DNA from: Chloroflexi bacterium OHK40
Lineage (GTDB): Bacteria; Chloroflexota; Chloroflexia; Chloroflexales; Chloroflexaceae
Length of the DNA: 64,000 nucleotides
NCBI GenBank assembly: GCA_004367505.1
Contig: SFCB01000201.1
Coordinates: 1-64,000 of the forward strand
Direction of reading: 5' to 3'
The position numbers and the translations under genes were made by a program. Below the pieces are notes generated by a model. That model searched no databases. It was not told the origin of the DNA and saw only the letters and a list, made by a program, of their open reading frames with translations. Positions within the stretch are counted from its first letter, which is position 1. Every line of letters starts with the position of its first letter. Shown in pieces: positions 3,801 through 6,505 of the stretch.

Positions 3801-5303
3801 TCAGCGGCGCGCTTTCCCGCGTGAGCGTGGCGCTGGGGGCTGGGGAGGAGTCTCCGGAACCTCCTGCGACTCCTCGCCCGGCGCCAACTCCTCGATCTCC
3901 GCCCGCGCGGCATCTTCCCGGGGGCCACTTTCGCGTCTTGCGCGTGGCCCCCCTTCACGCGCTTCCCGTGGCCCGATTACACGTTCCAGCCGCTCGCGCA
4001 CCAGGCTCTCGAAGCCGTTCCCGGTGGGCTCATAGTAGATCCGGCCCTCAAGGTTGGGGGGCAGGTGCGCCTGATCCGATCGGCCCTCCGGCAGGTCGTG
4101 GGCGTACTGATAGCCCTTGCCGTAGCCCAGGCTCTTCATCAAGCGGGTGGGGGCATTGCGCAGGTGCAGTGGCACGGGCTCGTTGCGCGTCTCGGCCACG
4201 TCCTGCATGACGGCGCCATAGGCTCGGTAGACGGCGTTGCTCTTGGGGGCCTGGCAGAGGTAGACTACGGCCTGGGCGAGGGCGAGCTCCCCCTCGGGCT
4301 GGCCGAGAAAATGGACCGCCTGCTGGGCGGCGATCGTCTGGGGCAGAGCGCCTGGATCAGCCAGGCCGATATCCTCCACGGCCATGCGCACCAGGCGCCG
4401 GGCGATGTAGAGCGGATCCTCACCACCGTCGAGCATGCGGCCAAGCCAGTAGAGCGCGCCGTCAGGGTCGCTGTCGCGCACGCTCTTATGCAGCGCCGAG
4501 ATCGCGTCGTAGTGGAGTTCGCCGTTCTTATCATAGCGCGTGGCCCGGCCCTGGAGCGCGTCGCGGATGTCGTCGAGGGTGATCAGGCGTTTGTCGCCAA
4601 TGGCGGGCGGTTTGGCGCTGGCGGCGGCCTCAAGGGCGTTCAGGGCGGTACGAGCGTCGCCGTTGGCCATATTCACAAGGTAGCCACGGGCATCGGCGGC
4701 GAGCATCACGTTCAGGTTGCCGAGCCCACGTTCGCGGTCGGCAATGGCCCGATCCACCAGCCGGCCTACGGCCTCGACGCTCAGCGCCTCAAGGGTAAAC
4801 ACCCGGGCCCGCGAGAGGAGCGCGCTGTTCACCTCGAAGGAGGGGTTCTCGGTGGTCGCGCCGATCAGGATCACCGTGCCGTCCTCGACGTAGGGGAGCA
4901 CCGCATCCTGCTGGCTCTTGTTAAAGCGGTGGATCTCGTCGATGAAGAGGACGGTGCGCTGCTGGAACATACCAAGCCGGTCCTGGGCCTCCTGGATCAC
5001 CCGCCGCAAATCGGCCACGCCGGCGCTCACGGCGCTGAGGGGCTCGAAGTGAGCGTTGGTGCTGGCGGCGATGATCTGAGCCAGCGTCGTCTTGCCGCTG
5101 CCTGGCGGCCCCCAGAGGATGATCGAGAACAGCTGATCGCTGGTGATCGCCCGCCGCAGCAGCTTGCCCTCGCCGACGATATGCTCCTGGCCGAGGTACT
5201 CCTCCAGCGTGCGTGGGCGCATGCGGGCCGCCAGGGGCGCCTGGCTCTGGAGCACCTGGGTCCGCTGGGTGTCGAAGAGGGTTGGGCCGCGTTTGGGTGG
5301 CAT
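3801..5303 (-). CDS. rarA: Replication-associated recombination protein A (MgsA/RarA AAA ATPase)
   Basis: [81 protein letters not shown]. Confidence 0.93.
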
Positions 5304-5382
5304 GGCAGTGGGCAGTTCTGGCCGGCAGGGTCTGAACAGGGGCGCTTCGCTGCAAGAAACCGGCTGGCGATCGTTCTCCTAA

Positions 5383-5388
5383 ATTGTA
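5383..5388 (-). promoter_or_regulatory. Putative -10 box for rarA
   Basis: TACAAT on minus strand (attgta on plus), ~80 bp upstream of the rarA start. Confidence 0.4.
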
Positions 5389-5458
5389 GCACGGGTCATC
5401 CGCTGTCCCAGTACCAGCAGCGCCGAACGGCCCATTCGCACAGGGGAGAAAGGGACTA

Positions 5459-5488
5459 TTGAGTCGCCCGGCGACTCTCCCGTATGCT
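5459..5488 (+). promoter_or_regulatory. Putative sigma70-type promoter for the candidate ncRNA
   Basis: TTGAGT - 18 nt - TATGCT, reading + and divergent from rarA. Confidence 0.45.
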
Positions 5489-5491
5489 ACA

Positions 5492-5690
5492 GTCAACAGA
5501 AGAGCGCGGCCCCAGAGGACGACGGTTGGCGAATAAGTCCCCGGACCGACATCCCGCACTTATTCCCCCAATTCCGCCCGCCCCCCCTTTTTCCCCGCGC
5601 CGCTTGCCGAAAGGCCCGCGGGGCAGCGCACCTTCTTGTAACCCCTGACGAGCGTGGCGGCCAGTGCTGGCCGCCGCTTCGTTTTTTCGG
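5492..5690 (+). ncRNA. Candidate structured non-coding RNA (6S-like possibility) ending in an intrinsic terminator
   Basis: Closing stem 5496-5513/5620-5639 (ACAGAAG.A.GCGC.G.GCCCC with GGGGC.A.GCGC.AC.CTTC.T.TGT), internal hairpin 5523-5538/5558-5576 (CGG.TTGG.GAATAAGT with ACTTATTC.CCAA.CCG), GCC-GAAA-GGC hairpin 5606-5615, then terminator. Confidence 0.55.
5656..5687 (+). terminator. Rho-independent terminator
   Basis: GGCGGCCAG-TG-CTGGCCGCC perfect 9-bp stem followed by GCTTCGTTTTTT. Confidence 0.85.
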
Positions 5691-5794
5691 TACGCCTCAG
5701 GCCAGAGCCCCTCCCAATTCGTACATTTTATCCCTATCGGCGCCCCCCGCTATCCGCTATACTAGCAAGGTACAGGTTTGCAAAAGGTGTTCAG

Positions 5795-6505
5795 ATGAGT
5801 GATGCGGCAGGGCCGCCGGTGATCCAGTTCGAGGGTGTGAGCAAGCGCTACGAGGAGGGAGGTCGCTCCCGGGTCGTTCTCGATGATGTCTGGGCGACGT
5901 TTGGCCAGGGTGAACTGGTTGTGCTCCTGGGCAAGAGCGGGAGCGGGAAAAGCACCGTGCTGAACCTGGCCAGCGGAATCGACCTGCCGACGAGCGGTGA
6001 GATCCGGGTGGCGGGCCGCTCGCTCACGCGGATGAGCGAGCGGGAGCGGACGCTCTTCCGCCGGCGGAACGTGGGCTTCGTGTTCCAGTTTTTCAACCTG
6101 GTGCCCACGCTGACGGTGCTGGAGAATGTGCTGTTGCCCCTGGAGCTGAACGGTGTCGGCGGCCCTCAAGCCCGGGCGGCCGCTGAGGCCATGCTTGGTG
6201 AGGTCAGGCTCGCCGACCGGGCCAGCAGCTACCCCGACCGGCTCAGCGGTGGGGAGCAGCAGCGGGTGGCGATCGCCAGAGCGCTCGTACACAATCCGGG
6301 CATCATTCTGGCCGATGAGCCCACCGGGAACCTCGATGCCGAGACCGGTCAGCACGTGCTCACCCTGCTCGATCGGCTCACGCGCCAGGCCGGTAAGACG
6401 CTCCTGATGGTCACCCACAGCCCCGAGATGGTCGGCGTGGCCGACCGGGTTCTCCGGATGCGCGAGGGCCAGCTAGTGGAGGAGGCACCGCTGCTGGCCG
6501 GATGA
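5795..6505 (+). CDS. ABC transporter ATP-binding protein (LolD/MacB-type)
   Basis: Walker [10 protein letters not shown], signature [17 protein letters not shown], Walker [13 protein letters not shown]. Start [25 protein letters not shown] -10-like box at 5758-5763. Confidence 0.9.

Follow-up and report, generated by a model that had tools for sequence, protein, structure and literature searches.

The window analysed here, the whole stretch of 64,000 nucleotides from Chloroflexi bacterium OHK40, contains at positions 5427-5690 a self-contained structured-RNA gene (~190 nt) composed of a promoter, a rod-forming body, a C/U-rich tract, and an intrinsic terminator. It lies between rarA, from which it diverges, and an ABC transporter gene, with the following features (window coordinates, strand, description, and basis of the assignment):

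3801-5303, minus strand: rarA/mgsA, the divergent neighbour (PF12002 MgsA_C, 2.2e-66).
5427-5435, plus strand: conserved upstream promoter element, ATGGGYCAT-like box, ACGGCCCAT in the window (homolog conservation).
5442-5461, plus strand: conserved upstream promoter element, RGGGAnnAAGGrnCTATTG (homolog conservation).
5459-5464, plus strand: -35 box, TTGAGT (sequence; TTG invariant across homologs).
5483-5488, plus strand: -10 box, TATGCT (sequence; TAT and the last T invariant across homologs).
5496-5513, plus strand: 5' arm of the closing stem (cross-lineage arm-swap test; compensatory changes in a Chloroflexus-like genus).
5523-5531, plus strand: 5' arm of a candidate second rod helix, CGGTTGGCG (partner 5601-5609; pairs kept in close relatives).
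5531-5565, plus strand: possible internal stem-loop GAATAAG...CTTATTC with inner CGG/CCG (predicted fold; kept in close relatives).
5552-5596, plus strand: G-poor tract rich in C and U, in which UUCC/UCCC motifs recur; the internal stem-loop overlaps its 5' part (composition; motif spacing).
5601-5609, plus strand: 3' arm of the candidate second rod helix, CGCTTGCCG (partner 5523-5531).
5606-5615, plus strand: possible GCC-GAAA-GGC hairpin, in competition with the second rod helix (invariant in close relatives; absent in L053).
5620-5639, plus strand: 3' arm of the closing stem, forming 16 pairs with the 5' arm (arm-swap test; compensatory changes).
5654-5687, plus strand: intrinsic terminator (terminator scan; similar hairpin in most homologs).
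5795-6505, plus strand: ABC transporter ATP-binding protein, the downstream neighbour (PF00005, 5.4e-34), with its own -10 box at 5758-5763.

An earlier note, made from the letters alone, had listed a promoter, a body, a terminator, and several stems, and all of these elements are present in the sequence where it had placed them. The -35 and -10 boxes of the window copy are separated by 18 nt and transcription is expected to start near 5494-5496; a strict sigma-70 scan gave no score for this promoter. The promoter spacer also holds an inverted repeat (5462-5478, GAGTCGCC-C-GGCGACTC) that is not seen in relatives. The terminator separates the RNA from the next gene, as had been proposed, being the sole terminator-like site within 5300-5900 and preceding the -10 box of the ABC transporter gene. 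With a conserved promoter, its own terminator, and a closing stem supported by covariation (see below), the locus has the properties of an independent sRNA gene, structured, non-coding, and divergent from rarA, in agreement with the earlier description. On the other side of the RNA promoter, between it and the rarA promoter (window ~5397-5425), most relatives, including Roseiflexus, conserve a GGTCATCC...CCCAGTAC block that resembles a regulator site.

The first homologs, from the same family as the source genome, came from a blastn search with the locus as query, and further ones were obtained from the rarA-upstream regions of relatives. They share a recurrent layout consisting of the promoter, a body of ~130-165 nt, and, in most of them, a terminator-like hairpin 110-185 nt past the start. 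The usual position is upstream of rarA and divergent from it, with two exceptions, G003, where the RNA lies ~2 kb from rarA, and G015, where it lies away from it. The most constant part is the promoter: GGGA and CTATTG are essentially invariant in 32 homologs from 12 lineages, 20-21 nt separate CTATTG from TATGCT, and the ATGGGYCAT-like element lies further upstream. Allowing up to 3 mismatches, the upstream promoter element has a single occurrence in the 6.9-Mb source genome (one found in the window, where none was expected), and no second significant promoter site was found in that genome, which speaks against a promoter regulon there. A covariance model built from the closest relatives and confined to close genera (R1) gave one strong match per genome there; because of this limited reach, we used a sequence model of the promoter to establish the distribution. 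At E<1e-6 it was positive in 38 genomes, once per genome, all belonging to two Chloroflexales families, f1 and f4; of the 158 genomes surveyed in the class, no others matched at this threshold, those of families f2 and f3 included. RNA-bearing genomes include G045, which we take to be Chloroflexus aurantiacus J-10-fl and whose copy, with an expected transcript of ~175-190 nt, lies on the minus strand near 547.4 kb, and G030, presumably Roseiflexus sp. RS-1; the element is also present at a locus (L064) of one of two Roseiflexus-named MAGs. We are nearly certain that this is a real RNA family conserved in the Chloroflexales. Although 35 of the 38 RNA-bearing genomes have reaction-centre genes, we rejected a link with phototrophy because the RNA follows phylogeny, 28 reaction-centre genomes lack a significant RNA match, and G033, which is 100% complete, has the RNA and no reaction centres.

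The unusual constancy of the promoter suggests that a dedicated activator may lie behind it. Similar promoters (ATGGGTCAT...GGGA...CTATTG...TATCAT or TATGAT) precede three Flp/Fap pilin genes in G015 (C158:4327-4391, C13:6766-6830, and C218:13214-13278; L241-L243), the pilin assignment coming from a PF04964 match (1.7e-8) for one of the three. The RNA and Flp pili may therefore share a regulator and be co-regulated.

Folding energy alone is weak evidence for structure at this locus. The segment 5494-5690 folds at -76.9 kcal/mol, while shuffled sequences average -67.1 (sd 4.1; z -2.4), but part of this stability stems from the terminator: the body without it reaches only z -1.6, and the energy is unconvincing by itself. 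The case rests on comparison, since the conservation of the upstream promoter element, the closing stem, and the C/U array sets the feature above chance. As the body is too divergent for a single alignment, we devised an arm-swap test in which the first 45 nt of each lineage were paired with the 60 nt before the terminator of every lineage. Across 18 lineages, own pairs had a mean of -37.5 kcal/mol compared with -26.9 (sd 1.14) for permuted ones (z -9.3), a value matched by none of 50,000 permutations, whereas control tests on other parts of the transcript gave z -0.5 and -1.0; lineage H (L057) was the one lineage that failed. In a Chloroflexus-like genus, 10 of the 18 closing-stem pairs are altered on both sides and 94% of cells pair, a level reached by none of 500 shuffles, compared with 31-54% in slid registers. 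The closing stem is real and confirmed by covariation. The other stems listed in the earlier note obtained less from this comparison: the internal stem (arms 5531-5537 and 5559-5565) keeps 10 of its 10 pairs in seven of eight close relatives and shows no compensatory change among the eight, while the GCC-GAAA-GGC hairpin never varies in close relatives and is hence uninformative, so that both are possible elements of the predicted fold. The candidate second rod helix, which competes with this hairpin, keeps 6-8 of its nine pairs in the eight close relatives and has counterparts in other lineages. An alternative pairing between a 5' GCGCGG and an internal CCGCGC is possible in seven of the eight and broken in L034. 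A Shine-Dalgarno-like AGGA(AA) segment (5514-5521) inside the closing stem recurs in several lineages (AAAGGAAA, AGAGGAAAC); situated in the 5' internal loop, it is able to pair with the UUCC units of the array itself.

The earlier note had suggested a 6S-like RNA, on the ground of size and of the B. subtilis 6S RNA adjoining rarA. This synteny is real for Firmicutes, where 6S RNA lies beside rarA in lactic acid bacteria and in B. subtilis (6S-1) (PMC8414754), which made the idea reasonable. The new RNA shares with 6S RNA (RF00013) its rod topology, size, and rarA neighbourhood, but differs from it in lacking a covariance-model match, in carrying a C/U array, and in coexisting with a true 6S RNA. 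A search with RF00013 was negative for 5200-5900 (E<=10) and for 18 homolog loci (E<=1), and the true 6S RNA of the source genome was found on a separate contig (G000 C251:42977-43146, L031; 65 bits), where the adjoining reading frames resemble holA and rpsT. RF00013 also matched in 34 of 61 relatives, a survey in which a negative genome does not imply absence since its stricter filters missed the source genome's own 6S RNA. About 20 genomes (19 of the 6S-positive relatives plus the source genome) carry both RNAs at separate loci. On these grounds we rejected the 6S identity. As to the 6S architecture of closing stem, large central bubble, and apical stem, the closing stem is proven here, the interior has a C/U tract, and the likeness to 6S RNA is one of overall rod topology. 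The Rfam search that had been proposed as a check was likewise negative, with no Rfam 15 family reaching its gathering score in the window element or the homolog loci; the candidates STnc450, mir-1226, HOTTIP, and ylbH in the window, and MIR6426 and DicF in the homologs, scored far below that threshold and were discarded. Chloroflexi-1 RNA (RF01698), which should be in the library searched, is also a candidate structured RNA of Chloroflexi, described from Chloroflexus aggregans (PMC2864571), but it matched neither the window nor any homolog, and the locus that is probably from C. aggregans was among those searched. That locus belongs to G061, apparently C. aggregans DSM 9485. The rarA-adjacent RNA is therefore new as a family and ordinary 6S RNA is excluded; we found no description of a rarA-adjacent CU-array RNA in the open-licence literature, although absence there is no proof of novelty. 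Overall, the observation made in the earlier note is confirmed and its interpretation partly supported.

The most distinctive trait of the transcript is its pyrimidine tract. In the window (5552-5596) it is 84% pyrimidine and 7% G (z 4.6 versus shuffles), and a G-poor tract of 35-96 nt (72-89% C+U, 2-15% G) occurs in all 32 homologs. According to the partition function, it is more open than the remaining body in 16 of 18 lineages; in the window the gap is modest (openness 0.48 versus 0.37 for the rest), and the lineage-A fold places part of the tract inside the internal stem. As in C-rich-motif sRNAs, there are several unpaired UCCC/CCUC-type motifs. WUCC/UCUCC sites number 57, compared with 39.9 in shuffles, and 28 of their 39 spacings fall at 7-12 nt (7.3 expected), but the exact significance of these values is inflated because the composite pattern was chosen after viewing the tracts. 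This effect bears less on the simpler words: CCTC, which alone of the ten most enriched 4-mers is free of purines, has 46 sites (29.1 in shuffles) and 18 of 29 spacings at 7-12 nt (3.9 expected). Both the number of motifs and their 7-12 nt spacing exceed those of mono- and dinucleotide shuffles. The tract sequence itself drifts between lineages, leaving no single target site conserved, whereas the array and its spacing persist. Upstream of 39 approximate gene starts in the window, the enriched words are GGAA, AAGG, GAAA, AGGA, and GAAG, most of which are complements of array words.

We favour, with a probability of roughly 0.45, an Hfq-independent sRNA that pairs through multiple C-rich motifs with Shine-Dalgarno regions; an anti-Shine-Dalgarno function had been the second choice of the earlier note and fits best. 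The dedicated promoter would drive a short transcript ending at its own terminator, whose 5' and 3' ends would form a rod by pairing, presumably shielding the RNA and keeping the long, G-poor C/U tract unpaired. Short motifs (WUCC, UCUCC, CCUC) would then be displayed along it roughly every 10 nt, each able to base-pair with Shine-Dalgarno sequences rich in purines (GGAA, AGGA, AAGG), and a single trans-acting RNA could in this way inhibit the initiation of translation on multiple mRNAs independently of Hfq, like the UCCC-motif sRNAs of Firmicutes. The latter are C/U-rich and pair with Shine-Dalgarno regions, and LhrC has three redundant CU-rich UCCC sites and can act on lapB without Hfq (PMC4132741). 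Our preference for Shine-Dalgarno pairing is due to the presence of the same kind of motif as in LhrC-type sRNAs and to the outcome of the Hfq search: none of the 61 Chloroflexales genomes had a match above the Pfam cut-off, as would be expected for Hfq-independent C-rich-motif sRNAs. LhrC1-5 and the other UCCC-motif sRNAs of Firmicutes (RsaE/RoxS, FsrA, SprD, and RNAIII) are likewise short and terminator-ended, with several redundant unpaired C/U-rich motifs able to pair with Shine-Dalgarno regions. The new RNA, by contrast, has no sequence kinship with them, appears in Chloroflexales only, has a long closing stem, and carries more motifs, evenly spaced at ~10 nt along its 35-96 nt tract. Several points argue against Shine-Dalgarno pairing: a protein platform would explain the regular spacing at least equally well, the drift of the tract leaves no single conserved target site, the support from Shine-Dalgarno words comes from 39 approximate starts, and the window tract is modestly open and partly inside the lineage-A internal stem.

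The strongest rival of Shine-Dalgarno pairing is a protein decoy, in which the evenly spaced C/U motifs would be bound by, and the RNA would titrate, Rho, a cold-shock protein, or ribosomal protein S1. Rho prefers C-rich, G-poor unstructured RNA, and the regular 7-12 nt spacing, the low G content and openness of the tract, and the persistence of array and spacing while the exact words drift would all suit such a protein; a YC-binding protein would not, however, require CCTC, the Shine-Dalgarno complement, to be enriched beyond composition, and we consider the decoy unlikely on balance. In its more specific form, which seems to us doubtful, the rod transcript would be a new type of decoy, offering a binding platform to a C/U-binding protein of several subunits (Rho, cold-shock, or S1-type) and setting its free level. 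The decoy RNAs CsrB and RsmZ similarly display repeated short motifs for binding, but those of the new RNA, a candidate decoy only, are C/U instead of GGA and lie in a single-stranded tract instead of hairpin loops.

Other explanations are less probable still. A 6S- or Ms1-like RNA that binds RNA polymerase would account for the rod topology with its closing stem and large internal loop, and length and rarA neighbourhood are as in Firmicutes (PMC8414754). Ms1 of Actinobacteria, a 6S-like rod that is not 6S RNA, offers a precedent for escaping the 6S model (PMC4191392, PMC9130861); the new RNA differs in lacking any Rfam match, and its binding to RNA polymerase would be hypothetical. The lack of RF00013 matches at the locus and its 18 homologs, the true 6S RNA elsewhere in the genome and the co-occurrence of both RNAs in about 20 genomes, together with an array that has no counterpart in the 6S model, make this improbable. 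We attach equally little probability to a cis role, in which either the RNA or the act of transcribing it from its strong divergent promoter would adjust rarA or the downstream ABC transporter gene; the long-standing divergent arrangement with rarA and the conserved sequence between the two promoters speak for it, but the promoter and RNA persist in G003, at a distance of ~2 kb from rarA, and in G015, away from that gene, and the terminator precedes the -10 box of the next gene. Finally, a 54-codon ORF (5484-5648) spans the body, but its start codon (ATG) falls within the -10 box, indels of 1 and 2 nt distinguish close relatives, and covariation acts at the RNA level. A small protein encoded by the transcript is thus highly implausible; we rejected the protein-coding reading, no ORF being conserved, and the earlier statement that the region has no credible ORF holds.

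These results show that the rarA neighbourhood can hold an RNA other than 6S, and synteny alone is therefore unfit for calling 6S RNA. An array whose sequence drifts while its spacing lasts raises the question of whether that spacing serves the ribosome-binding sites of mRNAs or the subunits of a protein; if the latter were true, the platform decoy would be a mirror image of CsrB in the Hfq-less Chloroflexales. Riboregulation is little known in the phylum Chloroflexi, to which this RNA adds a family without any Rfam match, and its presence in the apparent genomes of Chloroflexus aurantiacus J-10-fl and Roseiflexus sp. RS-1 makes it directly testable.
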